Assembly: GCA_004212095.1 (NCBI GenBank)
Contig: RXIJ01000034.1
Coordinates: forward strand, 1 to 35,017
Source: Methanosarcinales archaeon
GTDB taxonomy: Archaea; Halobacteriota; Methanosarcinia; Methanosarcinales; EX4572-44
Direction: 5' to 3'
DNA: 35,017 nucleotides
Part shown: one piece after another, positions 4,345 through 35,004 of the stretch
Numbering within the stretch: position 1 is the first letter of the stretch
How the letters are laid out: each line of letters opens with the position of its first letter
Program-made: the position numbers and the translations under genes
The notes under the pieces: model-generated
Seen by the model: only the letters and a program-made list of their open reading frames with translations
Told to the model about the DNA's origin: nothing
Database searches by the model: none

Positions 4345-6507
4345 CTATTCTTTCCTACTCTTTTTATACCTTATGTATCCGGCAAGCACAAGCAGTCCAG
4401 CCGAGAAGAGTGCAATCGTCGACAGTTTAGGTATCTGTGCCATCCGAGTCTGCGTTGTATTTTCCTGTGTTGTTACAATCATCTTGTTTGTCGAAGACGA
4501 TGTCGTATGCATGGTATGTTTCAGCTTGGCCTTCTGGAATTTGCCAGATTAACGTAACATTGAGATTGCCGCTGTCATCAGTTGTCACGTTCTCCTATTC
4601 AGTGGAGGGGTCTTCGCTCGTGTTCAACATTTTACCCTCGTTTACAGGGCTATCCTGTATCCGGATAGTGTAATTCGTATTCGGAGAAAGCCCCTCTGCC
4701 TTCACAGAGACATTTTCACCTTGCATGTATTCGTTACGCTCTGCACCAGCAGAATTAGTCGAGATTACTGAATAGACGTTAATTTTGCCTTCGTACACAC
4801 GGTAATTGTGCTTTGTAATGGTAACGTTCAATTTTCCAACGCTTGGATTGATTGTAAATTCATCCGCCTCCGGTCTTTTGAATACAGACAACCGCATCCT
4901 GTACCTAAACTGTACCGCTGCCAGACACATTGATAACAAATGTCTGCTCTTCCGCGGGAATGTGGAAAGGTTTGGCAACAGTGAAATTCTCTGGTACACT
5001 GGTCCAAATAAGTAGTTTAGGGTCTCCGAGAATGTTTAAAGCATATTGAATTCACCGCATTGCATTCCCGTCTTCAAGTGAGTCCGGAATATATCGTATC
5101 TTTGAGTACGTAACTGCCTCTCCGAGGTTATAGATGCTGTTATTAAATGTTGCATTGAAGAACGTACCAGCCACATCTGCTATTGCCGACGTAGCCAATC
5201 GAACCGCCATTGGCGTTATTCATAAAATGCTCAGACAGCGAATCGCTCTCAAAATTATTTGAATAACAGGATGTGCTGTAAAATATGAAATTCTCTAGTG
5301 AATTTGCCAGACTGTCTACATCGGAATTGCCAATCGAACCGGAAGCAACACTGATACTTCCGGTGCTGCCGTGCCTGATATGATTGACGATGTTGCACCT
5401 TGCATTAAACTTTGCCATTGCAGAACTCTTGTTTAGATTACCGTAACGCTGATACAATTCGGTAATGTTGAAATTATCAGGTATGTAGCTGTCATTGATC
5501 AGATCCTTTGTGATGCCGCCATCATTGGCAGCTCCATTAAGATACTCCTCTAAAAACAAAATATTCAATGTGTAATTATCAGAAGGTGGACTCTTCTCAT
5601 AGGTCAAGGTCTTGTTGACAAACGTCTGTGTTTCTGCGACAGTATCCACTGGCGTCCTTCCAACGAAGACGTCAGGATATAAATCCACGCTATCGTTTAC
5701 TTTTCCGTAATTTAAATTTCCATTTGCATCCCATGTGTCATCAAGGTTAGAATAATACAGGTCTGCTGGTATTGTTTTATCTTTCCAGGTTTTACCTTCA
5801 ACATACCTATACCCGTCACGATGTAGAACGATACCGGTATCGCCACCAAGAAGTATCCATTTCGTGCCCCACGCAGTCTTCGCATCTGAGATAAAGTTTC
5901 TTATCTTCTCCTTTCTCTGGATTGACTGTAACTGGTGCTGGTGTAAAACGAGGCATGGCGTACGTTACATTTAAAACGATGTGTTCATACAGAACACGTT
6001 CTTCCAAAGCAGGTCTGTACTGTAATGGAAACACACGAAAACTCAATATTTTATATTCTCTTAACGACCCTACGTGCATCCTGCCATACAAATTCCCGGG
6101 ATATGCATCGGAAGAATTGCATACCTAACCTTGCTGAACATGACCTTGTAAAGTGTGAGACATTGCCGGAACTGGTGGCTGGGCTGACAAAATGGTATAG
6201 TTCCCTGACAGCAATTTCTTACTGTATTTTACTACCTCGATACTCTTCACAGTTGCATGGGATGGTATGGCAACAAAAATGCTTTTCGTTGAAAGCATAG
6301 ACTCTCCGATGTTTGTTATAAACCTGCAACCAGACATTGAAACTATATCATAATCGTTGTGTTTCTCAAACTGTCAAAGTGCAGGTCAATTATTATACTG
6401 TTAGAAATACTCTGTGCGCGGGTTGCCGATGCAAGCATAACGATTGCAAGAAAAACAACCAGCGCTGTGATTAATATGATTTTGTTTGATTTATTTTTGG
6501 TTCTCAT
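4345..6507 (-). pseudogene. Decayed surface-anchored gingipain-like (peptidase C25) protein
   Basis: Signal peptide MRTKNKSNKIILITALVVFLAIVMLASATRAQS from ATG 6507. C25-like core fragments in 5143-5688 (YPDVFVGRTPV, NHIRHGSTG, FIFYSTSCYSNNF). C-terminal anchor IPKLSTIALFSAGLLVLAGYIRYKKSRKE ending at 4345. Pieces are in different frames with in-frame stops (TAG at 4595-4597, TAA near 4430). Confidence 0.82.
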
Positions 6508-15335: not shown

Positions 15336-16406
15336 TCAGGGCTTGCGTCCTTCAATCACATCATCAAGTTTGTCAGGTACCCGGTCAAGGTTATCAGCTA
15401 CAGGCATAACCGTGGGCTGCTTTATATCATTGAGCACTCTCTGTCCCTCCCCACTTATCACAAACTGCACAAATTGTGCAGCAAGTTCCGGGTGTGGTGC
15501 ATTCTCCGGAATTGTGATCGCATAGAAAATCGGTTTACCAACCCGGTCAGTCCCAACTGATGTAAACCGTTGAAATCCAAGCCTGACCATAACTTTTTTG
15601 TAGGTATCTTCATATTCCGACGAGCTCAAATCAATTTCATTTGGAAGCTCCAAAAACCGCAATCCATGCTGTTGAGCCACGCTTTTGTATCCAAATATAT
15701 AGTCTATTTCGTTGAAGTCAAGCAGTGCTAACAACTGCACACTCCCTCCCCTGATAATAATTTTTTTACTTTGGGGCTTGAATATTTCCGGTATGAGCAC
15801 TATGTAGGTTCCGTTATTTTCTGTTACTGGTATTTCCGGATTGAAATTGCAGGATATTAACCTGTCAAAGATTGTTTGGTCGTTATAGTACAATTCAGCG
15901 AGTTGTGCTGTCATCAGGGTTCTGTATCCACATGCATCGAGCATCGGATTTGAAAACCCAAACTTCACATCCGGCCGTGCAAGGATTTCATACCAGTTTG
16001 ATTCGTTGATTTCGTTTGCATATCTGCTTTCGTTGGTGTATGCAATAACCATTTGATTTCTTGCAAATCGGACGTACCAGCAGCAATAGCTCTCTGTATT
16101 ATTGCCGGTAGCATACATCAGGTCAGGAATCAGGTTTTCGTCTGCAACCGCGAGCACATCGTACTCCTCATGAATATCTGTTATGTGCCTGATTGCCTGG
16201 ATGCTCCCGTGCCCTTCGATTCGCACATCAACGTCCGGATGCCTGCTTTCAAATTGATGTTCTATTTCCCCAAATGGCACGATCAAACTTCCGGCATAGA
16301 TAACATCTAATTCAGTTTTCTTTTGTTCACCTGTTAATACCGTACCAAAAATGATAACAACAATTATCAAAAGAGATGAGAATGTTACCATATAAATTGT
16401 TCTCAT
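15336..16406 (-). CDS. WtpA/ModA-like extracellular oxyanion (tungstate/molybdate) ABC substrate-binding protein
   Basis: DVIYAGSLIVPFGEIEHQFESRHPDVDVRIEGHGSIQAIRHITDIHEEYDVLAVADENLIP...YANEINESNWYEILARPDVKFGFSNPMLDACGYRTLMTAQLAE. N-terminal TM segment. Confidence 0.88.
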   Translation of the reverse strand: MRTIYMVTFSSLLIIVVIIFGTVLTGEQKKTELDVIYAGSLIVPFGEIEHQFESRHPDVDVRIEGHGSIQAIRHITDIHEEYDVLAVADENLIPDLMYATGNNTESYCCWYVRFARNQMVIAYTNESRYANEINESNWYEILARPDVKFGFSNPMLDACGYRTLMTAQLAELYYNDQTIFDRLISCNFNPEIPVTENNGTYIVLIPEIFKPQSKKIIIRGGSVQLLALLDFNEIDYIFGYKSVAQQHGLRFLELPNEIDLSSSEYEDTYKKVMVRLGFQRFTSVGTDRVGKPIFYAITIPENAPHPELAAQFVQFVISGEGQRVLNDIKQPTVMPVADNLDRVPDKLDDVIEGRKP

Positions 16407-16975
16407 TTGATCTCAATCCTGTCCACCCATTTAATCCAGTAAGTGCCTTCAGTCATGAGGTTTTCTTCTCCAACTATAGAAACTCTAAAAGGTCTTCCAT
16501 CATTTTCCGGGAGGAGTTTACCATCTTGCCAATATGTCAATATCAGCTTTAGATCGCCATGTGGAACCTCTCTAAGGTCTTCCGGGTCAAAGGTGTTAAA
16601 ATCGCATTTTATCTGGTCGTAGTCAAAAACCATCATATATCCATCTTGTGCAGATATCCATACTGTGCTTGACTCGTTAATTCCTCCGACAAGATTGCAA
16701 AGGTCTTCTATTGGAACGCCTTTGCATTCAAAGGGGCCATATTTCATACCAACAGTTGAGAAGAAACTCCCGCGCCCAGTATAAGATGGCATTGTTTTAA
16801 TGTCATCGAATGACAGCACCATTTCTTCATCACCGACGAGTGTCAGGTTCCAGTCGATTTTTTCTTCTGTAACTCCGGGAAAATGCAGGCACCCGGATAC
16901 AGTAATGATAACACCGATACACGCCATTGCAATTGCTAAGGTTGGTAAAATGGGAACTCTACTGTCTCCTTTCAT
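16403..16975 (-). CDS. Lipoprotein with oxidoreductase molybdopterin-binding (sulfite-oxidase fold)-like domain
   Basis: Lipobox-like ITVSGCLHF; WNLTLVGDEEMVLSFDDIKTMPS...KYGPFECKGVPIEDLCNLVGGI..VWISAQDGY...ILTYWQDGKLLPENDGRPFRVSIVGEE...WIKWVDRIEI. Confidence 0.8.
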   Translation of the reverse strand: MKGDSRVPILPTLAIAMACIGVIITVSGCLHFPGVTEEKIDWNLTLVGDEEMVLSFDDIKTMPSYTGRGSFFSTVGMKYGPFECKGVPIEDLCNLVGGINESSTVWISAQDGYMMVFDYDQIKCDFNTFDPEDLREVPHGDLKLILTYWQDGKLLPENDGRPFRVSIVGEENLMTEGTYWIKWVDRIEIK

Positions 16976-17805
16976 TTCATACCCTTCCTTAGCGTGTACG
17001 CAACCAACAAGAGTCCCTCAATCGCAAGAATGGCATCGAATCCTGGCACTGAGCTTGGTTTTGACTCGGGCATGGATTTTGCAGGACCTCCTTTATGACC
17101 AATATATCCGCCGCTATAAATTCTCAGCTCATCCACCCATTTCACTGTAAATCCGCCTGTAGAGGGATACAGTTCATAGAAATGCTGGCACTTCGCAGGT
17201 AGGCACTCGTGCATGTCACAGTTTCCAAAAACGTGTTTGCCCTCCGGATTGATAGAATTGTCTGCAAAAAAGACGAGTCGCATCCCGGTGTAGTAATCAG
17301 GCGGATAGCCAACGCCTTGCCGTTCACCAACCTTTGTGTCTTCTCCATTGTACCAGCAGAGAACCATTGATCCCTGCCGTGCTTCCGGTTGATAGACATT
17401 TGTGTAGCTAAACTCCACGTGGTAGCCATCTGGCGAATGGATCATTACATCATCGCCAGAAGACATTCCTCCAACGAGATTGCATAAATCCATGATATCT
17501 GTGCCCTTAACAGCACCCTTATCTTTAAAGTTTGCAGTCTCGTTTGGATTCCATTTATCTCCTTCAAATACTGGTCCCTGGTGGTAGTAATGCGTTACTC
17601 CGTCCCCATGAACAGGTAGATTTGCCTCCATCCATCCATAAGTTACATCTGTTTCATTAAGAACGGTTGTCCCGTCTTCTGCATATTTTACCACGTGCAC
17701 TTCTGTCGTTGGATCCGCGTGAGCAATACACACTGTCCATACCAACAACAGAAACAACGAAATCACAAATATTATTCTTTTATTCATTTTATTGTTTTCC
17801 TCCAT
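16972..17805 (-). CDS. Secreted protein with one molybdopterin-oxidoreductase-fold-like domain and PGF-CTERM-like anchor
   Basis: Signal peptide; HVVKYAEDGTTVLNETDVTYGWMEANLPVHGDG...KGTDIMDLCNLVGGMSSGDDVMIHSPDGY...FGNCDMHECLP...; C-terminus PSSVPGFDAILAIEGLLLVAYTLRKGMK. Confidence 0.82.
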   Translation of the reverse strand: MEENNKMNKRIIFVISLFLLLVWTVCIAHADPTTEVHVVKYAEDGTTVLNETDVTYGWMEANLPVHGDGVTHYYHQGPVFEGDKWNPNETANFKDKGAVKGTDIMDLCNLVGGMSSGDDVMIHSPDGYHVEFSYTNVYQPEARQGSMVLCWYNGEDTKVGERQGVGYPPDYYTGMRLVFFADNSINPEGKHVFGNCDMHECLPAKCQHFYELYPSTGGFTVKWVDELRIYSGGYIGHKGGPAKSMPESKPSSVPGFDAILAIEGLLLVAYTLRKGMK

Positions 17806-19277
17806 TTAATCACATAAGCTATTGCCAATAATCCACCTATTGCAAATAACGCTTCAAATCCCTGTACTGATGATGCTGGCACTGGTGTAGCTGTTTGGAC
17901 GGAAGCTGGTGTTGCGGATGGCGAGGGGATACTGGTTGCATTTGGAGTGGTGGTGACAGTGGTGGGAGGTGAAGAAGGTGCTACCTTTACCTTGGGTGTT
18001 TCGGCTGGTGCTGGGCTGGATACCCTCACACTCCCGGTTCCATCCGCATTTCCATTTGTAGCTTTTATCATTGTTGTCCCCACAACATTAGCTCTAAAGA
18101 ATCCAGTATTATTGATTGTTCCAATGCTTGTATTGCTGGTTGTCCAGTTGAAAGTAACTCCAAACATTTCATTATAATGTTGATCATACGCAATTGCGTT
18201 GAACTGCTGCGTGCTGCTGACATTTAGTGTTACTGATGATGGTAAGATATTAATTATTGTCAAAACAGGCTCAGGCAGATGAGTAGGGCTTGGAATTGGC
18301 GTCGATGCTGGTACCGAGTTCTTTACTGTTGCATCAACCGTTTTATTCACTGTTCCATTCTCTGCCATTATCGTGACATTGCCGGCTGAGAGTGCAGTAA
18401 ATAATCCTGAATCGTTAATCTTCCCGACGGTTTCATTGTCGCTCGCCCACACAAAGATAATATTTGGTATTTCTGTGCCATACTGGTCATACCCGGTTGC
18501 TGTGAACTGCCGCGTGCCGCTGACATTTAGTGTTACTTCTACAGGTGAAATCTCAATTGAACTTAGTTTAGGGGGGTCCATCGTGCTGTAAATCACTATC
18601 TCATCAACGTATTTTACAGATAGCCCTCCCGACGATGGGCGTCCGACATCGTGGTCAGTGTAATTGTACCAGTACTCCGGAGATAGGCACTCGTGCATAT
18701 CCCAGTGCCCGAATACATGGTCATCAGCAAAGAAGACGAGCCGCATTCCAGTGGGATAGTCCGGAACGTATCCATCATCAGCTCGCCACCATGTCAGTAC
18801 CATTTGTCCCTGTCTTGGGTCTGGATCGTAGACATTTGCGTAACCAAAGTACTTCCTTAAGCCGTCAGACGCATGGATCATTACCCTCTCACCCGGGGAC
18901 ATTCCATCAACCAGTTCACAGAGGTCTTTGATGTCTGTCCCTTTTACAGCGCCAAAGTCCCTGCTCTCTATATTTGTGGTTTCATTCACATCCCATGGGT
19001 CACTCTCGAACTTTTCCCCGAACATGGGTCCCTGGTGGAAGTAATGCGCCACACCGTCGCCTTGTACGGGCAGATTCTCTTCCATCTGTCCATACGTCAC
19101 CGTTGTTTCGTTCAGAACAGTTGTCCCGTCAGAGGCGTACTTTACCATGTAGACTTCAGTTGTTGCTGCCTGCGCCGGAGGCGTTGAGAGCAGGAGCACA
19201 ATACCAATGAACAGTATCAATAGCATTGGTATTGTCAATGGCGCTCTTCCCATCCCTTTCCCCCTAACCGGAATCAT
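17784..19277 (-). CDS. Secreted protein: molybdopterin-oxidoreductase-fold-like domain + two BIG2-like domains + T/S/P stalk + C-terminal anchor
   Basis: KGTDIKDLCELVDGMSPGERVMIHASDG..FGHWDMHECLS; LSSIEISPVEVTLNVSGTRQFTATGYDQYGTEI and INILPSSVTLNVSSTQQFNAIAYDQHYNEM; anchor SSVQGFEALFAIGGLLAIAYVIKWRKTIK. Confidence 0.85.
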   Translation of the reverse strand: MIPVRGKGMGRAPLTIPMLLILFIGIVLLLSTPPAQAATTEVYMVKYASDGTTVLNETTVTYGQMEENLPVQGDGVAHYFHQGPMFGEKFESDPWDVNETTNIESRDFGAVKGTDIKDLCELVDGMSPGERVMIHASDGLRKYFGYANVYDPDPRQGQMVLTWWRADDGYVPDYPTGMRLVFFADDHVFGHWDMHECLSPEYWYNYTDHDVGRPSSGGLSVKYVDEIVIYSTMDPPKLSSIEISPVEVTLNVSGTRQFTATGYDQYGTEIPNIIFVWASDNETVGKINDSGLFTALSAGNVTIMAENGTVNKTVDATVKNSVPASTPIPSPTHLPEPVLTIINILPSSVTLNVSSTQQFNAIAYDQHYNEMFGVTFNWTTSNTSIGTINNTGFFRANVVGTTMIKATNGNADGTGSVRVSSPAPAETPKVKVAPSSPPTTVTTTPNATSIPSPSATPASVQTATPVPASSVQGFEALFAIGGLLAIAYVIKWRKTIK

Positions 19278-22200
19278 GCGTAGCTTGCAAGATCATCAGC
19301 GCGTCTACCGATGTGACTCGCCCGTCTCCACTCATATCAGCAACAAGATCCGTCTCGATGCCGCCGACTGTCATCTGCAAGGCAAGTGCCGAATCAACAG
19401 TCGTGAGTCCCCCGTCATGATTGGCATCGCCACGCAGCATCGTCCTGTTACTGTATACCACAATCCTTTTGACGGTTATGGCACTCGATACGTTTGCTCC
19501 GATGAGTCTAAGAGGCCAGTTGGAGCTGTCCTCGTGGATATGTGTGCTATTGAGTGTGTTCGCAACGATGTAGTTACTATTCCTAATCGTGTCTCTGCTG
19601 TCGATTGTCACACTGTGTCCATCGCTCGCGATGATCGTAATGTTGTATCCTGCTGCGGCAAGTGTGTCATTGTATGCACCATCTGAGTGTGAGTTCTCAT
19701 CGTCCACCCAACCACATAGTAACCAGAGAGGCAAGCCCCCCCACGTTCTGCTTTTGCTATCTGTATATTCGGATGCGTGTTCGCCCATCGTACAGGTGAG
19801 AGCATTCTCGAAGTAGGACTTGCTGATGGTACCCTTAATAGCACCGTCTAACGTGAGAGTCCAGTCCGCCTCTGTGCCATTGTATATCTTGATGGTGTTG
19901 ATGTACTTAGTGGAAAGACCCCCACATGAAGGGTACTGGATGTCATCACTCCAGTAGTAGTGCCAGTAATCCTCATCCATGCACTCGTGCATGTCCCAGT
20001 TGCCGAAGATATGATCGCTGGCGTTTGCAGTAAAGAAGAGCCGCATTCCATTGGAATAGTTAGGCACATAGCCCTGATCATCTACCCACCATGCGAGGAA
20101 AGCCTCGCCCTGGCGTTCCTGCTGCTCAGTCGAGAGTTCGCCGGTGTAGATGTTTTCGTAGCCCAGTTTGGTTTCGTACCCATCGCTTGAGACCAGCTTG
20201 ATCTCAGTTCCTTCTACCATGCCTCCGACGAGTTCACACAGGTCTTTAACCAAAGTCCCTTTCACTACCCTGTCAATCTTAAAGCCACTGGGATATGTCT
20301 CATTCTGACCCCAGTGGTCTCCAGTGAAATCACAAGCCTCAAACTTATAGTGCGTTGTGCCATCTCCGATGACAGAGAGATTTGCCTTCATCCACAGGTA
20401 GGTGACATTGGTCTCGTTCAGAATAGTAATACCATCCGTATCGTACTTGATGATGTGGACAGAAGGTACCTCTGTTGACGCACCAAACTCGGTCAGTTCG
20501 ATCTCTGCAATGTTGCCAACTCTATTTCCACCGGATACTTCACTTCCGACAAGCCTGAGTGGCCATGGTGGAGACGATCCCTCTTTCGAGAGTGGTGTTC
20601 CGTTCAGCGTGTCCGCAACGATATACCCGCTATTGCGTGCCACATCTGCGCTTGCGAATTCTTTGGAATATCCATCACCTGCCTTCACGATGATCTTGTA
20701 TCCTGCAGCAGCTTGTTCGTCGTTGAAACAGTCCGAACCATGAGATATTCGGTCGTCTGTCCAACCGCAGAAGAACCAGAGCGGAACACCTCCCCAGATA
20801 TCTCCAGTATCGGAATCAGTCCAGGTTACTCCGTGGCAGGAGAGTTCGGATGCAGCCTCGTACTCTGCTTGAGAAAGCACATCGGTGATCTTGCCGCTCA
20901 AATTGAGGTTATAGCTTCCGGAGTCGGGTGATGGGGTGATAAGTTCAACGAGGTTAATTTCGGAGATGTTACCAACCTTGTCCGTCCCAGATGTAACGGA
21001 GCTACCCACGAGCTTGAGAGGGTGCAAATAATCAAGTGGTGATCCGTTTAAGCTATTTGCCACGATATACCCATTGTTACGGGCAATCTCGCTGCTATTA
21101 AAGGATCTGTTGTAGCCATCGGCTGCGATTACTTTGACCGTGTAGTTGGTCGCTGCAAGAGAGTCATTAAACGTCCAGTGACTGCCTGCCTCGAGGTTGT
21201 CCACTGCACTACAAAGACACCAGAGCGGAACACCTCTCCAGATATCGCTACCGTCGGTGTAAGTCACGTTATGGTAGCATGAAACAGCACCCTCGAATTC
21301 TGCCTGTGTGATAGTGTCCCCAACATCACCGAGCAGTTTGAGTGTCCATCCTTCCGGTGGTTTGGGCAGACCAACGAGTTGGATCTCAACGATGTTTCCG
21401 ACATGCTGTCCACCAGTAACATCGGCACCTTTGAGGTGGAGAGGCCAGCAAGGCTTCCCTGAGGAGGTGTTCTCAGGAAGTGCTGAGCCGTTTAATTTAT
21501 TTGCAACGATATATCCATTGTTCCGTGCGATGTCAGCAACATCAAGGGATGTACTCCATCCGTCGCCTGCTATGACTTTTACACTGTAACCCTCAGCAGC
21601 AAGCGTGTTGTTGAATGCACTGGCTCCATGCTGTAGTTTATCATCAACCCTGCCCACCAGATACCAGAGTGGAATACCTTCCCACGTTCTGTTCTCGGCG
21701 TCAGTATATGAAGCGTTGTGACATGCCATGCCATCTTCAAACACGGTTTTATTCATCATTTCGTTTATTGCACCAACGATTTTAAGATTCCAGTCACCTA
21801 TCGCTGGGTTCACCGTGATCCTGATGACTGCTGTCGCGTTCTCCGTAGTCTCTTGATCAGTCCCATAGTAGAACTCAATATAATCGCCGTCAGTGATCGG
21901 GTTGTTGCTCACGCCGGTGGTGTCAGAGTAGTAGTCCTGATATACGCCATTTAACAGGTAGTTCCAGGTCAGTTTGGGTGTAACGCTATCATTATACTCA
22001 TACTCCTCGATCCAGTCGATCAGGGCGGTATTTTTAGAATCCTTCCAGCTCCCGTTATAGCCGAATGCGCCGTCATCGGCAGCAACTTCGAGCGCACCGT
22101 GAGGCGTGAAGTTGGCAACCTCATGAGGATTACCATCCGTATCATGCCACACGAAGTTACCTTCTTCCAGTACGACTGAACCATCGAAGATTACATCAAT

Positions 22201-23268
22201 TCCGGTTCCGGCATTCGCTGTGATATTAATTACCGCTATGGCGTCTTCAGCCCCATAATCGAGCAGCTTGACATTGCCGTAGAAGTAGTACACTACGTCG
22301 TTGTCCTGAAGTTCATAGACGTTCAAGCCCTCGGTGCTGGGATTATTCCAGTCATCCAGGACGTTGCCGTTTACCGAGCAACTCCATGCCCACGTTACAG
22401 TATCATTTGCCTTGTTGTAACGATACTCTCCAATGTCGTCAACCATCAAAATGCCTTTATCAGCGAACTTCTTATCGGTGACGTTATAGTCAAATCCGCC
22501 GGCGGTCGCTGCTGCATCGAGAGCTCCCAGTGGCGTAAGCTGTTTTACCTCGTAATCGACCCCTGAATCGTAAGCAGTTAAGGTGAAGTTCCCTTCCGTG
22601 AGTGTGACCTCACCGTCGAAGACTGCGTCTATTGTAGAATATATCGCTACATTAGAGACATCCCTTACGGATAGTCCATTTGAGGAGGGGTAAGTGCCGC
22701 TGTAATTGTACCGATATTCAGGAGCCATGCATTCGTGCATGTCCCAGTTGCCAAAGACAGTATCATTGGCAAAGAATACAAGTTGTATCCCGTCGCTATA
22801 ATCGGGGACGTGAGCCCCATCTTTGTACCAGCAGAGAACCATTGGTCCCTGTCCCTGTTGCGGCGAATAGACGTTCTCGTAGCCGAAGTATTTGCTAAAC
22901 CCGTCAGATGCAATGATCTTTACCTCATCTCCTGTTGACATGCCTCCAACCAGTTCACAGAGGTCTTTAACGTCTGTTCCTTTCACATGACCTTTGTCCT
23001 TGATATTCATTATTTCGGTTGGATCCCAACAGTCTCCCTCGAAAATAGGTCCCTGGTGGGAGTAATTTACACCATCGCCCTGCACTGCCAGGTTCGCCTC
23101 CATCCACTGATAGGTTACCGTAGTTTCGTTCAAGATTGTCGTATCATCTGAAGCGTACTTTATTATATTCACTTCAGTTGTGGCTGCTATCACAGGCACT
23201 GCCGAACTCAGTATTACAATGCATAATAGCATTGCCAGTATCACACCTTTTCCTGTATCTTTTCTCAT
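19264..23268 (-). CDS. Giant secreted modular protein (1334 aa): 2 type-1 and 4 type-2 molybdopterin-oxidoreductase-fold-like domains, 2 DUF4430-like domains, C-terminal dockerin
   Basis: Signal peptide; type-1 domains with KGTDVKDLCELVGGM...GNWDMHEC; type-2 domains with GIPLWYLVGRVDD / GVPLWCLCSAVDN / GVPLWFFCGWTDD / GLPLWLLCGWVDD; DUF4430-like segments (EGNFTLTAYDSG..., EGNFVWHDTDGNPHEVANFTPHGALEVAADDGAFGYN); dockerin RGDANHDGGLTTVDSALALQMTVGG..ADMSGDGRVTSVDALMILQATHDSG. Confidence 0.88.
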   Translation of the reverse strand: MRKDTGKGVILAMLLCIVILSSAVPVIAATTEVNIIKYASDDTTILNETTVTYQWMEANLAVQGDGVNYSHQGPIFEGDCWDPTEIMNIKDKGHVKGTDVKDLCELVGGMSTGDEVKIIASDGFSKYFGYENVYSPQQGQGPMVLCWYKDGAHVPDYSDGIQLVFFANDTVFGNWDMHECMAPEYRYNYSGTYPSSNGLSVRDVSNVAIYSTIDAVFDGEVTLTEGNFTLTAYDSGVDYEVKQLTPLGALDAAATAGGFDYNVTDKKFADKGILMVDDIGEYRYNKANDTVTWAWSCSVNGNVLDDWNNPSTEGLNVYELQDNDVVYYFYGNVKLLDYGAEDAIAVINITANAGTGIDVIFDGSVVLEEGNFVWHDTDGNPHEVANFTPHGALEVAADDGAFGYNGSWKDSKNTALIDWIEEYEYNDSVTPKLTWNYLLNGVYQDYYSDTTGVSNNPITDGDYIEFYYGTDQETTENATAVIRITVNPAIGDWNLKIVGAINEMMNKTVFEDGMACHNASYTDAENRTWEGIPLWYLVGRVDDKLQHGASAFNNTLAAEGYSVKVIAGDGWSTSLDVADIARNNGYIVANKLNGSALPENTSSGKPCWPLHLKGADVTGGQHVGNIVEIQLVGLPKPPEGWTLKLLGDVGDTITQAEFEGAVSCYHNVTYTDGSDIWRGVPLWCLCSAVDNLEAGSHWTFNDSLAATNYTVKVIAADGYNRSFNSSEIARNNGYIVANSLNGSPLDYLHPLKLVGSSVTSGTDKVGNISEINLVELITPSPDSGSYNLNLSGKITDVLSQAEYEAASELSCHGVTWTDSDTGDIWGGVPLWFFCGWTDDRISHGSDCFNDEQAAAGYKIIVKAGDGYSKEFASADVARNSGYIVADTLNGTPLSKEGSSPPWPLRLVGSEVSGGNRVGNIAEIELTEFGASTEVPSVHIIKYDTDGITILNETNVTYLWMKANLSVIGDGTTHYKFEACDFTGDHWGQNETYPSGFKIDRVVKGTLVKDLCELVGGMVEGTEIKLVSSDGYETKLGYENIYTGELSTEQQERQGEAFLAWWVDDQGYVPNYSNGMRLFFTANASDHIFGNWDMHECMDEDYWHYYWSDDIQYPSCGGLSTKYINTIKIYNGTEADWTLTLDGAIKGTISKSYFENALTCTMGEHASEYTDSKSRTWGGLPLWLLCGWVDDENSHSDGAYNDTLAAAGYNITIIASDGHSVTIDSRDTIRNSNYIVANTLNSTHIHEDSSNWPLRLIGANVSSAITVKRIVVYSNRTMLRGDANHDGGLTTVDSALALQMTVGGIETDLVADMSGDGRVTSVDALMILQATHDSG
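20480..21810 (-). repeat. Three tandem type-2 domains within the giant protein (a fourth near 19450-19870); boundaries approximate
   Basis: Each repeats W.L.L.G.I...(S/T)...E....(S/T)CH..(S/T)(Y/W)TD...W.G(I/V)PLW....VD....ND..AA..Y.(V/I)..(A/I)..DG(W/Y)S...IARN.GYIVA..LNG..L.....PL.L.G..V..G..VGNI.EI.L. Confidence 0.85.
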
Positions 23269-23638: not shown

Positions 23639-25420
23639 TCAAGAAGGAAGGTTAGATTCATTGCTCGGTTCCACACACCGGTTGCATCCAGCACGTCCAC
23701 ACCACTCACATGACACGTCGCTGCAGATCCCGTGTGCTTGCTCAAGGACAACGGTCTCGAATACCGTATCCGGTGGATAGATGTGTGTAACCACTTTGTT
23801 ATCTTTTGATACATCTGCAACTTTTATCACTTCCATTGTCGCTTTATCCCCTTCTATCGTAATTCTGGCGTATCCAAGCGCATGTTCAAAGCTGCTCCGG
23901 TAGCCCTGTATCTTCTCAGATGCAAGAGAATATAATGGTGCGCCCCCACAACCCAAGACCACGTACTGGATGCCACTTTCCTCGTATCGCTCGTAAACGT
24001 GCACATGACCGTTGAATACCACATCCACACCATTGTTTATGAAAATATTTTCCCACGCATCGTTTTTCCAGCCGCCCAAATGTCGTTCATTTGAACTGTA
24101 TATCGGATGGTGAAACGACACGAATTTCCAGGTTGCACTCGTATTAAGGTCGTTTTGTAACCATTCCGTTTGCCCAGTCGTGTGCGGCGATGCCCAGTCG
24201 TTGTCGTCCAGCACAGTGAAGTGCACGTTTCCGCAGTCGAAAGAATACCACCCCAACATTCCAAAGGCATCGTAATAGTTCGTGTGATTATATTCATGAT
24301 TCCCAAGCACTGGATACAAGGTGGTATTTGCCAGCATCGTCCTGCCGGCATCGAAGAAGTCATCCCATTCATCCATGTCGTTTCCACTGCAGACAAAATC
24401 TCCTGTATGTATTACAAATGAAATATTTTCCTCTTCTGCAATACTGTCTGCAACGAGTTTGTGTCTCTCCATTTGCGTGAATAAACCAGTCTGCTCTCTC
24501 GTGTCCCCGTAGACTATGAAGGTGAATGAACCATTACCATATGTCTTGAATGTGCGGTCGCCTGTAGAACCAGTCCCAACTGTTACCTGATAGTGATACA
24601 CCGTGTTCGGGGTTAAATCTCTTATAACAAGATGATGTAGTTGTTTATTTTCGGTATCATTAATTATGTGGTCGTATTCACCGTTCTCAGCATAATATTT
24701 CTCTATCGCGTACTTAACTATTCCCAAAGTCACATCTTCTGACTTCCAGTTAATAGTTGTTGAGTATGCAGTGGTGCCTGTAATATAAGGGCCCCATGAA
24801 ATGACTGATGACGGCGTAGACAATGTTCGCGGAAGTGGCTCAGTGCTGTAAATCGTTGGTTTATCAACGCATTTTATAGATAGTTCCTTTGGAAATGGAA
24901 TACCTGGCTGATAATAGTGCCAGCAGTTTTCAGCCACGTATTCGTGCACATCCCAGTTACCAAACATATTGGCATCTGCACGGTGTTGCCGCGTAGGAAC
25001 CATTGGCATCTGCCAGGGTTGGTAACTGTGGCCATAGATGTTATCCCATGCAAACCACCTGGGGAAGCTATCAGATGCTTTAATCTCTGCTCCATCGCAT
25101 AAGAACATTCCATCAACAAGGTCACACAAACTCGTAGCGTTTGCCCCAACAATCGGACTTTTATTCTTGAGGTTTAGAGTCTCATTAGTACCCCACAGAT
25201 TGCCCAAATCAAAGCTTGGCCCCCGATAGTAGCGGTTTGCCAAATCATTACCATGAATGGGTAGATTTGCTTCCATCCATTGGTACGTTACATTTGTTTC
25301 GCCCAGTGTCAAACTGTCCATATCATACTTTATTATGCACGCACCAGTTGCCGGATCACCTGCTTCTACAGGCAGTACCAAACACAACATCGCGATGCAC
25401 AGCAGCATTGCCTGTATCAT
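23639..25420 (-). CDS. Secreted purple-acid-phosphatase-like metallophosphoesterase with N-terminal type-1 domain and Cys-rich C-terminal tail
   Basis: N-term TYQWMEANLPIHGND...ANATSLCDLVDGM...FGNWDVHEY. FnIII-like segment then FIVYGDTREQ, HTGDFVCSGND, VLGNHEYNH, VSFHHPIYSSNE, VVFNGHVHVYER. Tail CSDVSCEWCGRAGCNRC. Confidence 0.9.
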   Translation of the reverse strand: MIQAMLLCIAMLCLVLPVEAGDPATGACIIKYDMDSLTLGETNVTYQWMEANLPIHGNDLANRYYRGPSFDLGNLWGTNETLNLKNKSPIVGANATSLCDLVDGMFLCDGAEIKASDSFPRWFAWDNIYGHSYQPWQMPMVPTRQHRADANMFGNWDVHEYVAENCWHYYQPGIPFPKELSIKCVDKPTIYSTEPLPRTLSTPSSVISWGPYITGTTAYSTTINWKSEDVTLGIVKYAIEKYYAENGEYDHIINDTENKQLHHLVIRDLTPNTVYHYQVTVGTGSTGDRTFKTYGNGSFTFIVYGDTREQTGLFTQMERHKLVADSIAEEENISFVIHTGDFVCSGNDMDEWDDFFDAGRTMLANTTLYPVLGNHEYNHTNYYDAFGMLGWYSFDCGNVHFTVLDDNDWASPHTTGQTEWLQNDLNTSATWKFVSFHHPIYSSNERHLGGWKNDAWENIFINNGVDVVFNGHVHVYERYEESGIQYVVLGCGGAPLYSLASEKIQGYRSSFEHALGYARITIEGDKATMEVIKVADVSKDNKVVTHIYPPDTVFETVVLEQAHGICSDVSCEWCGRAGCNRCVEPSNESNLPS

Positions 25421-26278: not shown

Positions 26279-27322
26279 TCAGTCTTCTTTTAGCTTGAAT
26301 GTCTCCATGCTGTGTTCTGCCTTACGTCTTTTTCTTATAGATACTTCTTTGATATGATCGAGATCGCTAAGTTTCTTTGTTGTTATAACTCCGCTTCCCT
26401 CCAATCCTGAAAATATCTTTTCTCCTATTTCTGTTCTGATTATAACAGTTGACCATCCATCCTCAGATCCTTCGCATCCTACTGATATGTCAGCCAGTTC
26501 ACTGGTATAATCCTCGCAGACAAGACAATGTTTTGGAACCCAACCACTTGTCTCTGTAATAGGGAGGGACAGTTTGTTCTCTTTTGTGTATGCATTAAAA
26601 AAATTCTTGGAAACACTGATTTTTGTTATTTCAGTAATGTCAACACTATCCTCTTCTATTCTTTTGCGCATCTTCTCATATTCAAAATTCTCCCTGCAGA
26701 AAAGACCAACTAATAGAGTTATTGCAGGATAAAGCTCGAAATTTATGTACTGAAGATGCCTTGTTGATCTAATGTGGCAAGGTGTTCCAACGATGCATAC
26801 ACGGTCGAGTGTTTGATCGATAACAGCTGTTCTGATCTTCATCAGGTTTGGCGTAGTTCCATACTTAGTTCCCGAAGCTTTGACAAAACCATCAAATGTT
26901 GTTGCAACTGTTGGCTCAGGCTTCCACTTATAACTTTCTGCAAGTATGGCGCCGTCTATTATATCTGCATTCAGAACGTATCTCAAAATTGCTGTTACGA
27001 TCCCACCATCCTGTGATTTTGAGAGAATTTTCTTATCGTTTACTTTTGCTTCAAAAATATTTCGGTATATTCCGATAACCTCTTCTTCTCTCCTTTTTCT
27101 CCCAAAGATCATCTCTTCTATCTTATTTTCGTTAAATCCAGTCTTATAACATGCATGATAGCAGGTCTCGCAGTCTTTGCATGCATCTTTTTTTTCTGGC
27201 CTTTTCGGTACTCCATTAATCCATTGAAGGTGATTAAGTGGGCATGAGGCAATGCATGCACCACAGCATGTACATATCCCACTTTCTATCACCTCTGATT
27301 CAAGCTCTTCGTATGCAGGCAT
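26279..27322 (-). CDS. Coenzyme F420 hydrogenase/dehydrogenase beta-subunit (FrhB/FdhB) family iron-sulfur protein
   Basis: SGICTCCGACIASCPLNHLQW...CKDCETCYHACYKTG (two ferredoxin-like clusters); SQDGGIVTAILRYVL; VCIVGTPCHIRSTRHLQ; HCLVCEDYTSELADISVGCEGSEDGWSTVIIRTEIG. Confidence 0.93.
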   Translation of the reverse strand: MPAYEELESEVIESGICTCCGACIASCPLNHLQWINGVPKRPEKKDACKDCETCYHACYKTGFNENKIEEMIFGRKRREEEVIGIYRNIFEAKVNDKKILSKSQDGGIVTAILRYVLNADIIDGAILAESYKWKPEPTVATTFDGFVKASGTKYGTTPNLMKIRTAVIDQTLDRVCIVGTPCHIRSTRHLQYINFELYPAITLLVGLFCRENFEYEKMRKRIEEDSVDITEITKISVSKNFFNAYTKENKLSLPITETSGWVPKHCLVCEDYTSELADISVGCEGSEDGWSTVIIRTEIGEKIFSGLEGSGVITTKKLSDLDHIKEVSIRKRRKAEHSMETFKLKED

Positions 27323-27327
27323 GCATT

Positions 27328-29139
27328 TTACAACCCAAGTTCATTTAACTTTTGTTTTGAAGGGTATCCATCTTCATCATAGCCACGTCTCTCATAATAC
27401 ATTGTAAGCATGTCCTCTAATGGATGCACTTTTCCTTTTGCAGGACCTTCTGGCATCTCTTCTATTAAAAATCTCTCAGGCAGTTTGTCGTCCTTTCGGT
27501 CAAATCCTTCTCGCTTGTTAAACAGCCTCTCCAGTGCAAATATTCGCTCACCTGTCTTTAAAAACTCATCTTGTGTGTACCCATCCCAACCAGTCACTCC
27601 TGCGATCATGTTTGCATACTCATCAGCACCTATCGCGAAGGTTAAAAAGAGGCAATTGCTCGACGAATCAACCGCAGAAGTGAGGTTTTGGAATAGTATG
27701 GTAAGATCCACTTTGGCTTCGCTTGCATCAACAGGGTCAACTTTTAGTGGCGACCCGATTATCTCAGCTGCGATCGTGTATCCGCTGACATGACATGCTC
27801 CACGGTTTGCAGTTGCATAGTTTAACCCAATACCAAAAGCCCCTCTTGGATCATAGGCAGGAAGCTCCAAACCTTTTACCTGCATCGCATAGTACTCTGA
27901 TTTTTTTCCTATTTTTTGAGATGCAAGCTTTGTCCCATCTGCAAATACATCCAAAAATCCCTCTCTTTTTGCAATCAGCTCTACCATTTTTATCATAGCA
28001 TCTGCATCGCCAAAGGACAGTTCAAAGCCAAGATCATCGATTGAGATAATCCCTTTCTCGAAGAGTTCCATTGCAAAACCTATTGTTGAGCCAGTTGATA
28101 TTGTATCAAGACCGTACTCGTTGCAGAGATAGTTTGCTCTTGCGATAGCATTTAGGTTATTCACACCACATTCGCCGCCAAATGCCCAACTCGACTCATA
28201 TTCAAGGCTCTCTCCTTCTGTTCCAGCATATTCACCGCTTTCTATTTTTATCCAACGACCACATTCCGTGGGACATTCATAGCATGCTTTTTTCTCTTTC
28301 ATTATTGTCTTTTTTATTTGCTCACCAGATATGAGATCTGCATCCTTAAAAACTCCAGTCTGGAAGTTTTTTGTTGGGTATATTCCGGAAGCATTCATGA
28401 TGTTGGTGAGCACAGCTGTTCCGTATGTATTCAGTGCTCCACCCTCTTTCATAACATCATTTTCTGAAATTAGCTTCAACACTTTGTCTGCAGCTCTTCT
28501 AAAAACGATAGGTTTAGCAACCTCTACATCCTTTGTGCCTTTTACCACGATTGCTTTAAGATTCTTACTCCCAAAAACAGCACCAAGACCAGTCCTTCCG
28601 GCAGCACGGTACTTCTCATTGATCACTGCAGCCATACGTGATTTTTTTTCACCAGCAATGCCTATTTGAAGTACTTTTGCTTCCTCATCAGTTTCTGCTC
28701 TGATTCCATCATCCACTTCACTGACAAGTTTGCCCCAAAATTTGCCTGCATCCCTGAATTCGACGTTTTCATCATTTATTAAAATGTATGTTGGATTTTC
28801 AGCCTTTCCTTTTACCACAATTGCATCATATCCACATTTTTTAAACTCGGTAGCCCACGTACCGCCTGCACTTGCAAACGTTAGACCACCGGTTGCTGGA
28901 CTTTTTGAAACCACTATGTGCCTTCCGCTTGATGCACTCTTCGTTCCAGTAAGAGGCCCTGTTGCCACTACGATGATGTTTTGTTGAGATAATGGTTCTA
29001 CATTAGCCTGCAGTTCATCGTATAATATCTTTACTCCAAGACCTCTTCCGCCAAGGAACATTCTTGCAGTTTCTTTATCGATTTCTTCTTCTTTACACGT
29101 TTTTGATGTTAGGTCAACTCTTAGTATTTTTCCTGACAT
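27328..29139 (-). CDS. Aldehyde:ferredoxin oxidoreductase (tungstopterin enzyme) family
   Basis: MSGKILRVDLTSKTCKEEEIDKETARMFLGGRGLGVKILYDEL...SGRHIVVSKSPATGGLTFASAGGTWATEFKKCGYDAIVVKG...ACYECPTECGRWI. ATG 29139 preferred over 29226. Confidence 0.96.
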   Translation of the reverse strand: MSGKILRVDLTSKTCKEEEIDKETARMFLGGRGLGVKILYDELQANVEPLSQQNIIVVATGPLTGTKSASSGRHIVVSKSPATGGLTFASAGGTWATEFKKCGYDAIVVKGKAENPTYILINDENVEFRDAGKFWGKLVSEVDDGIRAETDEEAKVLQIGIAGEKKSRMAAVINEKYRAAGRTGLGAVFGSKNLKAIVVKGTKDVEVAKPIVFRRAADKVLKLISENDVMKEGGALNTYGTAVLTNIMNASGIYPTKNFQTGVFKDADLISGEQIKKTIMKEKKACYECPTECGRWIKIESGEYAGTEGESLEYESSWAFGGECGVNNLNAIARANYLCNEYGLDTISTGSTIGFAMELFEKGIISIDDLGFELSFGDADAMIKMVELIAKREGFLDVFADGTKLASQKIGKKSEYYAMQVKGLELPAYDPRGAFGIGLNYATANRGACHVSGYTIAAEIIGSPLKVDPVDASEAKVDLTILFQNLTSAVDSSSNCLFLTFAIGADEYANMIAGVTGWDGYTQDEFLKTGERIFALERLFNKREGFDRKDDKLPERFLIEEMPEGPAKGKVHPLEDMLTMYYERRGYDEDGYPSKQKLNELGL

Positions 29140-29342
29140 TTTTATCACAGCATACAGAAGTCTTCTATTGTTTGTATAAAGATGTGTCGTTTTTGTAGTA
29201 TCCGAACGCTTAGAAGACATTCGCACATCCTCTATGGATTCTTATTATTGTACATTCTCTGTTTGGCTATTCAGACCAGCAAAAGGTTTTAACTGATAAG
29301 CGATGAATTCGTATTCTATTACATTGAACATTCGAGAATTAT

Positions 29343-31853: not shown

Positions 31854-34820
31854 TCACCCAGCCGTCGCCTGTAGAATTATTAATGCATCGAGGGATGTGA
31901 CCTTGCCGTCGCCACTGACATCAGCAGCATCGTCGAACGAACTGCTACCGGTGGCTATTTCGAGAGCGATCGCTGCATCTGCTGGTGTGAGCGTGCAGTC
32001 ACAGTTGAGGTCGCCTCTTATCGTTGGCACAAACCCTGTTTCATCCATAGCGTATCTCACGTACGGATTTTGCATGAATTCACGCCACACTATTCCACTA
32101 CGATAATTCTCAATCATGAGCATGATCGCACCCTCATCAATTCCGATATACTCATCAGTCCGCCACGTCTGGCATCCGCTGAGAGAAACATTCGTATCAA
32201 GATTGAACGCATCCTTAAAACCGTATTCACCCCATATTTTACCGCCATAAGTTTCGTACATATACCGCAAAGCAGGAATTGCAATATCAGGCGCTAACGC
32301 AACCGATCCTCCAGCTCCAGTCGGTGGGATGGTTCCATCGTGCCAATAGCAAGGACAGCCCCCATAGCCAGTATACCCGCCGGGTCCATCACATGCAGTA
32401 AGTCCCCAGCAGTTCTCGCCATAAGTGGCATACACATTGCTGTTATCTATGCAGAACAATCGGTTCTCTCTGACTGCGTTTATCGAGTTCTGCCAGTAGT
32501 TCGTATAACCATCGTGTTTACACCTGAAATCAATCCAACAGTGCGAATACTGATAGGTGAATAGACTTCCTGTATAGCAATAGATAAAATTCTCACCATC
32601 GCAACCGTCTGATGCACTGCATGGCAATTTAAAGTCGTCCATGTAAATAGCAGAACCGGATGTGGACACATTGGTTCCTAAAATGGCAACTGTGAATCGG
32701 TTGACCTTCGTCTTATCCAGTACACCATCCTGCATTGTCAATTCCCACACTCTAAAGGATGAAACTGGTATATCAAGTTCATTCCAACCCATCCAGTTCA
32801 AAGGCAATTCGTATATCCAGTATTCATTGCCATAATCTTCTTCGATCTTAATTCTCAATGTATTACTGGAATTATCACCATATATCCACAGATTTACACT
32901 ATCGTAGTTAGCCCATGTACTTTTTTGCAGGTAGGCTCCGCATCGTTCTCCACCAGCACCATCGCCGGTGTTATAGCCAATCTTCATCGAATAATCCCCG
33001 ATTTTGCTATTGTTCGAGCGCGATATATCGATGGATGCACCTGAACCTGAGTCTACAAATGTTACCCAAGCACTCACATTATTATCTTCAAAATCGTCCA
33101 CCATTCTACCACAGTCTTTTCCGTACGTGCTTGCCCACGCATCCCAACTCCTTTTCGGATCCGGAACCGGATGGGTTGGCGAGCCAATAGCCAAGAGGTA
33201 CATAATCATTGCTTCATTATAACCACGCCAATAGTCCGGTGATAAGCCCTCTTCAGGAGTCCATTTCATTGCAATCGTATCAGTTCCGTTGAGCATCCAC
33301 GTCCAGTTAACTCTTTCATAGAGTTCGTTTGACAGGCTCTTTATACTCTCATTTTCTTTAAAATGCTCGCCGGCATGTAACACTCCTGTCATCAGGAGTG
33401 CGGTGTCAATGGATGATACCTCACAATCCCATTCACGCTCTCCAGTGCTCATGTTAATCCAGTGATAATAAAAACCTTCTTTATTATACAAATTGTTGAA
33501 CGTTTCAAGCGTGGTTAATATCCGGTCAGATGCATCCGTGCTATTTACCCACCCTCTGCTTTCTGCTATACATATCGCTGAGAGGCCAAAACCCACCGAC
33601 GCGATACTGCAAGGGGAATCCAATGTGCTTCTATCCCTAATCAAACCGTTTGTTTGGTTTACTTCGCTCCAGAAATAGTTGAAAGTGGCATGTTCTACCA
33701 TCTCAAGAAAATCATCGTCTGATACGGGCATGTCAGACAATTCCAGTTTGATGTCATCCACGTAAATGGTGGAACCGAGTGGACTGTTTCCGGATACGAC
33801 CAGTGTAAATCGATTTATCTTCGACTTATCATAGATACCTTCTGCTGCCCCCCCAGCAACAAAGGATGAGAGTGGTATAACGAGTTTTTTCCACCCACCC
33901 CAATCTATAATTGATGTGTATCTCCACCATTCTTCGCCATAAGCTTCCTCAAGCTTAATTTCCAGTGTATTGCCAGAATTGTCACCACACACCCACAAAC
34001 TCACATTGTCATAATTTACCCATGTATCCATCTGCCTGTAAACGCCGCACCAGTTTGTTTCATACCCACTTATGTTGTAGCCGATCCTCATCGAGTAACT
34101 CCCAGATTTACTGTTATTTGAAAGTGACCGGTTGATGGATGCGTTTTGGGTTGCAAATAGAGACCAATCACCCACGTCAGTATCTTCGAAATCATCGATG
34201 ATGGGATTTGTCATGTCCGCTTTCGTGAGATATTCCTCGCTATCTGATAGGTCGTACTGATTGGAATATGATACAGGTGGAATCGCTGCCATTTGCAGGA
34301 TCGTTAATGCATCGAATAGGGTGACTTTGCCGTCGCCATCATTTTCGACAATGTTATTATTAATTATAGGATTATTATTGCTGCTCCCAATCCAAATTCC
34401 ACTATCGTGATTCAATGTTATCGTATTATTGATTATGTCACATGCATTATTTTCGATATAGACTCCGTAGTCTCCATTTCTTATCGTGAACCCATCAATT
34501 GTGACATTATTAGCTGTTATATACGCACATTTACTTCTTCCCAAACCGAGTATATTTGAGTTTCCATTCTCCCCAACAAGTATCAATGATTTGGAAATTG
34601 AAATACACTCATAATAAGACCCGTTATATACAAAGATCGTATCGCTTTCGTTTGCCGCATTTATCGCATCCTGAATATTTGTAAAATCCGCGCCTCCACT
34701 ATCACCCACATACCAAATCTTTCCTGATGCTGCTCCAATAAACAACAAACTTAATACTGCCATTACAAAAAGAACATCCATCAACTTCCGTTTCAAAGCA
34801 TTTTCAATTACCATCCTCAT
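31854..34820 (-). CDS. Secreted dockerin-containing glycoside hydrolase, 'putative glucoamylase' (PF10091/GH144-like), with beta-helix N-terminus and two CBM-like modules
   Basis: Start at ATG 34820 (or 34814) after taaaggagat. N-term IWYVGDSGGADFTNIQDAINAANESDTIFVYNGSYYE. Catalytic segments HATFNYFWSEVNQTNGLIRDRS, SIASVGFGLSAICIAESRGWV, WRGYNEAMIMYLLAIGSPTHP, QYSHCWIDFR, ENCWGLTACDGP, IPALRYMYETYGGKIWGEYGFKDAFN, YIGIDEGAIMLMIENYRSGIVW. Dockerin RGDLNCDCTLTPADAAIALEIATG...SGDGKVTSLDALIILQATAG. Confidence 0.88.
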   Translation of the reverse strand: MRMVIENALKRKLMDVLFVMAVLSLLFIGAASGKIWYVGDSGGADFTNIQDAINAANESDTIFVYNGSYYECISISKSLILVGENGNSNILGLGRSKCAYITANNVTIDGFTIRNGDYGVYIENNACDIINNTITLNHDSGIWIGSSNNNPIINNNIVENDGDGKVTLFDALTILQMAAIPPVSYSNQYDLSDSEEYLTKADMTNPIIDDFEDTDVGDWSLFATQNASINRSLSNNSKSGSYSMRIGYNISGYETNWCGVYRQMDTWVNYDNVSLWVCGDNSGNTLEIKLEEAYGEEWWRYTSIIDWGGWKKLVIPLSSFVAGGAAEGIYDKSKINRFTLVVSGNSPLGSTIYVDDIKLELSDMPVSDDDFLEMVEHATFNYFWSEVNQTNGLIRDRSTLDSPCSIASVGFGLSAICIAESRGWVNSTDASDRILTTLETFNNLYNKEGFYYHWINMSTGEREWDCEVSSIDTALLMTGVLHAGEHFKENESIKSLSNELYERVNWTWMLNGTDTIAMKWTPEEGLSPDYWRGYNEAMIMYLLAIGSPTHPVPDPKRSWDAWASTYGKDCGRMVDDFEDNNVSAWVTFVDSGSGASIDISRSNNSKIGDYSMKIGYNTGDGAGGERCGAYLQKSTWANYDSVNLWIYGDNSSNTLRIKIEEDYGNEYWIYELPLNWMGWNELDIPVSSFRVWELTMQDGVLDKTKVNRFTVAILGTNVSTSGSAIYMDDFKLPCSASDGCDGENFIYCYTGSLFTYQYSHCWIDFRCKHDGYTNYWQNSINAVRENRLFCIDNSNVYATYGENCWGLTACDGPGGYTGYGGCPCYWHDGTIPPTGAGGSVALAPDIAIPALRYMYETYGGKIWGEYGFKDAFNLDTNVSLSGCQTWRTDEYIGIDEGAIMLMIENYRSGIVWREFMQNPYVRYAMDETGFVPTIRGDLNCDCTLTPADAAIALEIATGSSSFDDAADVSGDGKVTSLDALIILQATAG

Positions 34821-34965
34821 ATCTCCTTTAGAAGCCGTCAAATTAGCTTTTTGACTTAAAACTCTATCTCTTTTTTGAGTATGACTTGATTTACAGGCAT
34901 GCTGCACCCTACCGACAGTTTTAGATAGTTTGCCAAGTCTGCCTCTTATGGCAGAAATTTCAAAA

Positions 34966-35004
34966 GTTTTCAAAGGAGTCTCTTTTGCAGACTCGCTTGA
35001 AAAC
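34966..35004. other. Long imperfect inverted repeat upstream of the dockerin hydrolase
   Basis: gttttcaa-ag-gagtct-cttttgc-agactc-gc-ttgaaaac: 8 bp + 2x2 mismatch + 6 bp stem. Confidence 0.8.

Follow-up and report, generated by a model that had tools for sequence, protein, structure and literature searches.

Gene order and domain composition of the array cluster

A cluster of overlapping genes encoding predicted surface proteins with repeated sulfite-oxidase-like domains, referred to here as the array, was analysed in a 35,017-nucleotide stretch of DNA from a Methanosarcinales archaeon (contig RXIJ01000034.1, the whole of which is called the window). Five genes on the minus strand (g1 to g5) succeed one another with overlaps of 14, 22, 4 and 4 bp, and their coordinates, when rechecked, were exactly those of the original prediction. 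The first, g1 (19264-23268), encodes a scaffold protein of 1334 amino acids. It is followed by g2 (17784-19277; 497 amino acids), in which profile searches found a type-1 domain, Big_2 domains and a PGF-CTERM-like anchor, and by g3 (16972-17805; 277 amino acids), a type-1 domain protein whose PGF-CTERM-like end scores just below the cut-off. A lipoprotein of 190 amino acids with a single sulfite-oxidase/PruR-like domain (class G4, with 44 homologues) is encoded by g4 (16403-16975), and g5 (15336-16406) encodes an oxyanion-binding protein of 356 amino acids, the array-type WtpA, which has an N-terminal membrane segment and no lipobox cysteine. The expected products, namely a dockerin protein, two membrane-anchored proteins, a lipoprotein and a WtpA-like protein, were borne out by matches to NF003196, PF00174 and PGF-CTERM-like profiles, with the dockerin slightly below its cut-off.

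These five genes had been taken as a complete unit, which they are not. The next gene upstream of g1, g0 (23639-25420, minus strand), encodes a purple-acid-phosphatase-like phosphoesterase (PF00149, E 5.5e-15), and a degenerate type-1 domain was found at its N-terminus by self-comparison. Because g0 also bears a type-1 domain, the cluster in the window comprises, as judged from its domain content, at least six genes, and the number of genes varies between clusters.

From its N-terminus the g1 scaffold consists of type-1 domain a (22633-23184), two tandem DUF4430-like repeats (21808-22635; a relative, L179, gives a sub-threshold DUF4430 match), type-2 domains A (21367-21795), B (20941-21351) and C (20485-20916), type-1 domain b (19876-20472), type-2 domain D (19447-19866) and a dockerin-like C-terminus (19291-19431), all encoded on the minus strand. 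The dockerin match to PF00404 (E 0.0016) reaches 19.1 bits against a cut-off of 22.9, and five cohesin matches were found in the genome of the window.

Self-comparison of the cluster domains gave E-values down to 1e-75, far beyond chance. The motif proposed for the type-1 domains, K-G-(T/V)-x-(I/V/L)-x-D-L-C-x-L-V-(G/D)-G-M/I, was found twice in g1 and once each in g2 and g3, with a variant form in g4. For the type-2 domains a cysteine had been reported in three of four; the residue is there, but the count was too low, as all four in g1 contain a Cys followed by a His (ACH, SCYH, SCH and TCTMGEH), this pair being Cys516-His517 of g1 in domain A. Among 119 type-2 domains, including those of methanogen families, the Cys is conserved in 92% and the His in 95%, with a spacer of 0-7 residues. 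Since the 13 residues from Cys to W-x-G in domain A lie within the range of the enzymes compared (10 to 18 or more), the type-2 Cys, in our own reading of the sequences, appears to sit at the register of the cofactor Cys in sulfite-oxidase enzymes. No conserved Cys was found at this place in the type-1 and G4 domains.

Some type-2 domains have a lineage-specific CxxCH (CVGCH or CMGCH) at the Cys-His site, and these occur in clusters resembling those of anaerobic methanotrophic archaea (ANME), namely L025, L027, L029, L030, L036, L037 and L146. A gain of heme c is possible in these domains, whose organisms are of a kind known for extracellular cytochromes. No CxxCH was observed in the array proteins of the window.

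Fold of the array domains and their closeness to PruR

The proposal of a sulfite-oxidase-type (PF00174-like) fold was upheld by both profile and structure searches. The g4 protein matches PF00174 above its cut-off (E 2.3e-8; 34 versus 24 bits), and the same family is matched by 18 of 21 type-2 members (best E-value 5e-6), with a methanogen scaffold reaching 71 bits. The type-1 domains are linked to PF00174 by sequence profiles through G4 alone and weakly by fold. Their profile gave no match against the enzyme set (probability 1.3), so that the type-1 fold assignment relies on the G4 link together with the fold search. They also weakly match the second half of NF041762, a GEGP motif-containing diheme protein, and this half matches PF00174-like stretches in other archaea; however, the type-1 score is far below the curated cut-off (25 versus 300 bits) and, as noted, the window proteins lack CxxCH.

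AlphaFold2 (AF2) models were built with alignments of related sequences and searched against the PDB with Foldseek. For type-2 domain A (predicted local distance difference test, pLDDT, 82) the five best matches were PruR structures at E 8e-6 to 2.4e-5, with the best PruR matches as a group spanning 8e-6 to 1e-4; sulfite dehydrogenase ranked next and YedY further down. The six best matches of the type-1 domain, which was modelled from g3, were also all PruR, at E 1.7e-3 to 2.4e-2. A search with the short G4 core returned spurious beta-propeller matches alone, and searches of plasmids for PruR relatives returned sulfite-oxidase-like enzymes and no PruR. The models place the array domains in the sulfite-oxidase fold with PruR as the closest solved structure, clearly for type-2 and more weakly for type-1.

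PruR (PDB 7kos, 7rkb) is similar to the array domains in being secreted, in having this fold without being a molybdoenzyme and in its Asn/Asp-x-Tyr motif; it lacks the molybdenum-ligating Cys, and its pterin site is formed by Tyr104, Trp160 and Asn102, the latter being Asp in some groups (PMC13259868). When a sulfite-oxidase-like protein was aligned with 7rkb and 7kos using HMMER, the N-D-Y of PruR fell on the D-G-Y of the enzyme. The D-G-Y/F motif of the array is conserved in 100% of the G4 domains, in the type-1 domains (Asp 99%, aromatic residue 88%) and in the type-2 domains (Asp 90%, aromatic residue 88%). By alignment and fold search, the array domains thus have both the Asn/Asp102-x-Tyr104 pattern and the sulfite oxidase (SUOX) fold that characterise PruR, and we infer that the D-G-Y/F residues in the window would touch pterin. 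An invariant C-terminal W-V-K-W was found in G4 and is a candidate counterpart of Trp160. Unlike the array, PruR is a single periplasmic protein of ~170 amino acids that works with a c-di-GMP or kinase regulator, whereas the array domains occur in many copies on anchored surface proteins alongside a WtpA, and those of type 2 keep a Cys-His pair.

Distribution and the linked WtpA

The survey was confined to Halobacteriota and covered 188 genomes of the order to which the window belongs and a phylum sample of 348 genomes. The array cluster was found in 44 genomes across the phylum, both in ANME-type alkane oxidisers and in many closed methanogen genomes. Of the 188 genomes of the order, 13 have type-1 domains and 10 have type-2 domains, and all of these belong to families f1, f2 and f3 or to genus g27 of family f5. 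Family f1 is that of Argoarchaeum, f2 and f3 would by elimination be ANME-2 families, and g27 includes the ANME-3 genome HMMV2, whose contig matches L037. Type-1 domains were found in 42 genomes of the phylum sample (n = 348), many of them closed. The frequent plan in methanogens consists of WtpA, G4, a small type-1 protein, a phosphoesterase of ~400 amino acids encoded as a stand-alone protein, a PEGA/DUF3344 type-1 protein of ~1000 amino acids and a large scaffold of the T1-T2-T2-T2-T1-T2 type, where T1 and T2 denote type-1 and type-2 domains.

A near-identical cluster, with proteins 83-94% identical, is present on contig RPGO01000029.1 of Candidatus Argoarchaeum ethanivorans Eth-Arch1, and by this match the archaeon of the window, an ethane oxidiser, is assigned to the genus Candidatus Argoarchaeum. 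An Argoarchaeum-type cluster (83-90% protein identity) was also observed on QNCM01000129.1 (L034), a contig labelled Omnitrophota that is probably mis-binned.

No description of the cluster was found in the literature searched (open-licence papers), so the original prediction of an undescribed system stands in this respect, but the cluster is widespread and not peculiar to the genome of the window. The expected linkage to aldehyde ferredoxin oxidoreductase (AOR) failed to generalise: an AOR-like gene (27328-29226) lies beside an FrhB/FdhB-like gene in the window (26279-29226 together), and AOR was found near the array only here and in L022, both Argoarchaeum, and in none of the other mapped clusters.

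Linkage to a WtpA-like protein, on which the original prediction had been staked beforehand, was found without exception. In 44 of 44 genomes with G4, wtpA adjoins or overlaps the G4 gene on the same strand with a gap of -44 to +55 bp. A second, array-type WtpA is present in 12 of the 13 type-1 genomes of the order, the remaining one being a genome of 57% completeness. The g5 protein passes both curated WtpA cut-offs (NF003196, E 7.5e-113, 377 versus 355 bits; TIGR03730, 360 versus 243 bits), and in the tree one branch with a support of 100/100 separates all array WtpAs from the 25 WtpAs compared with them, which are ordinary or neighbouring ones.

The tungstate ligands of WtpA are Asp160 and Glu218, with selectivity set by Asp160 (PMC10221389). 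Their equivalents in g5, placed by alignment and by the 58-residue ligand spacing in PF0080, are Asp157 (codon 15936-15938, minus strand) at the Asp160 position and Ser222 (codon 15741-15743, minus strand) at the Glu218 position. All 44 array WtpAs keep Asp160 and have Ser for Glu218, a substitution also found in 6 of the 25 non-array WtpAs, one of them within a WtpABC operon. Every array WtpA retains two Ser, Asp160 and two Tyr of the oxyanion pocket, and its ligand is likely an oxyanion, though which one is uncertain.

Next to the array WtpA, a permease and/or ATPase is encoded in the same orientation in L187, L188, L190, L191, L192, L197, L198, L199 and L210 and in the opposite orientation in L195, giving ~10 of the 44 genomes in total. 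These permeases are divergent (31-39% to WtpB), and in such lineages gene order ties the array to import. The array WtpA therefore resembles that of the WtpABC importer in its pocket and, at some loci, in its partners, but differs in its separate clade, its Ser and its position against an array gene. The Argoarchaeum array also differs in being apart from the complete ordinary Wtp operon of the genome (L141). In that operon a TsaA-like gene was observed between WtpA and WtpB, and the WtpA open frame of 588 amino acids is much longer than usual.

Proposed pterin capture and alternative explanations

The genome of the window (79% complete) gave no TatC match, and 25 of the 28 further array-bearing genomes searched, many of which are closed, gave none either; G004, a 29th genome in this search, has no array and is not counted. 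Enzymes with molybdenum cofactor receive it in the cytoplasm and cross the membrane already folded through the twin-arginine translocation (Tat) route. With TatC missing from most array-bearing genomes, export of the array domains as loaded molybdoenzymes is unlikely, but binding of pterin, metal or cofactor outside the cell would still be possible. This agrees with the secreted, repurposed and probably non-enzymatic role that had been suggested. An exception to the Tat-less pattern was observed in G201, a 1.5 Mb genome with three TatC matches and ten type-1 domains spread over contigs C8, C10, C14, C15 and C16.

Building on the observed architecture, fold class, conservation, WtpA linkage, separate WtpA clade and absence of TatC, we tentatively favour the explanation, plausible but short of probable, that the cluster encodes a surface array, exported by the general secretory (Sec) route, that captures pterin or tungsten/molybdenum (W/Mo)-pterin and feeds an oxyanion importer. 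Domains of the non-enzymatic, pterin-binding PruR kind would be displayed on the cell surface through dockerin-cohesin pairing, PGF-CTERM anchors and the lipoprotein. Display of this sort is found in ANME, where the substrate-binding proteins reported to carry dockerins belong to nickel/oligopeptide and TroA-type systems, but no mention of SUOX/PruR-fold arrays or of a tungstate linkage was found there (PMC9012536). We infer three further points, namely the identity of the ligand, the phosphoesterase step and the hand-over of metal. The captured ligand would contain pterin and would probably be the Mo- or W-pterin cofactor, or its breakdown products, from neighbouring (lysed) cells. The co-encoded surface phosphoesterase would trim it, and the freed oxyanion would pass to the array WtpA and then to an ATP-binding cassette (ABC) importer, formed in some lineages by the permease and ATPase of the cluster and in Argoarchaeum perhaps by the ordinary WtpBC. 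The pterin form of the original capture idea is strengthened by PruR being the closest solved structure, with both ligand and function still putative. The narrower form of this explanation, in which the multi-copy array is dedicated to scavenging intact W-/Mo-pterin cofactor (or molybdopterin) and its metal is passed to a specialised oxyanion importer, is doubtful, if still a serious possibility.

Several observations weigh against pterin capture for import. The type-1 model is of moderate quality (pLDDT 68) and its PruR matches are weak, and no mappable or conserved counterpart of PruR Trp160 was found in type-1 or type-2 domains. The PruR pocket is described as not large enough to take the molybdenum cofactor and as preferring reduced monapterin (PMC13259868). 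Because the Glu218 ligand is absent, the anion of the array WtpA may not be tungstate or molybdate, and no permease or ATPase was found within 3.5 kb of the array WtpA in Argoarchaeum, nor in most other genomes.

Pterin may instead be sensed, with extracellular pterins signalling redox state or neighbours, as in bacterial PruR, and controlling aggregation or surface attachment. The nearest fold is indeed that of a signalling protein, and the many copies are borne by scaffolds that resemble adhesins and contain dockerin, PEGA and Big_2 domains. However, no DcpA-, DTB-, kinase- or other cytoplasmic output gene was recognised in the mapped clusters, where WtpA takes the place of the regulator typical of PruR, and the constant WtpA linkage, together with the adjoining transporter genes of ~10 genomes, points to uptake. 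Sensing is therefore unlikely, although it deserves some weight.

The phosphoesterase within or beside the clusters and the loss of Glu218 could also point to another oxyanion, such as phosphate freed by the phosphoesterase from organic phosphoesters held by the array and then bound by the Ser-substituted WtpA. This is improbable, as g5 passes the WtpA equivalog cut-off and keeps the selectivity residue Asp160, and the same Ser occurs in non-array WtpAs, including the one within a WtpABC operon.

A slightly smaller chance still is given to structural or adhesive surface modules that have no small-molecule ligand and are merely co-transcribed with WtpA. Shuffling of the domains with Big_2, PEGA, DUF3344, dockerin and PGF-CTERM is what such modules would show, but both the D-G-Y/F pocket motif and, in type-2 domains, the Cys/His pair have been retained across 44-167 sequences, and in none of the 44 genomes is the WtpA gene apart from the array.

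A role as secreted enzymes of the sulfite-oxidase type, loaded with molybdenum or tungsten, is very unlikely. The array shares with sulfite oxidase, YedY (MsrP) and YuiH-like enzymes the PF00174 fold, W-x-G, D-G-Y and, in type-2 domains, apparently the Cys register, but type-1 and G4 domains lack that Cys, no redox partner was seen in the cluster and most array-bearing genomes have no Tat route. Surface heme-c domains for extracellular electron transfer, suggested by the CxxCH of ANME-like relatives, are hardly credible. They were discarded as the function common to all arrays, since the spacing in the conserved Cys-x(0-7)-His varies outside those relatives.

If capture for import is correct, a surface system for obtaining the metal or cofactor would exist in methanogens and in the anaerobic oxidisers of methane and ethane, all of which depend on tungsten or molybdenum bound to pterin cofactors in their core enzymes. 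Pterin-binding proteins of the sulfite-oxidase fold, known from signalling in bacteria, would then also have a place in the surface biology of archaea. The closed methanogen genomes that carry the cluster make this directly testable.

Another dockerin-bearing surface protein was observed in the window (31854-34973), a putative glucoamylase (PF10091, E 2.5e-68) with a CBM_11 domain. In another genome, whose WtpA cluster lies elsewhere, a protein of 764 amino acids (L031:116-2410) combines a G4-like domain with a dockerin-like end. Finally, three minus-strand open reading frames in different frames (window 4595-6091) resemble fragments of one broken secreted protein.

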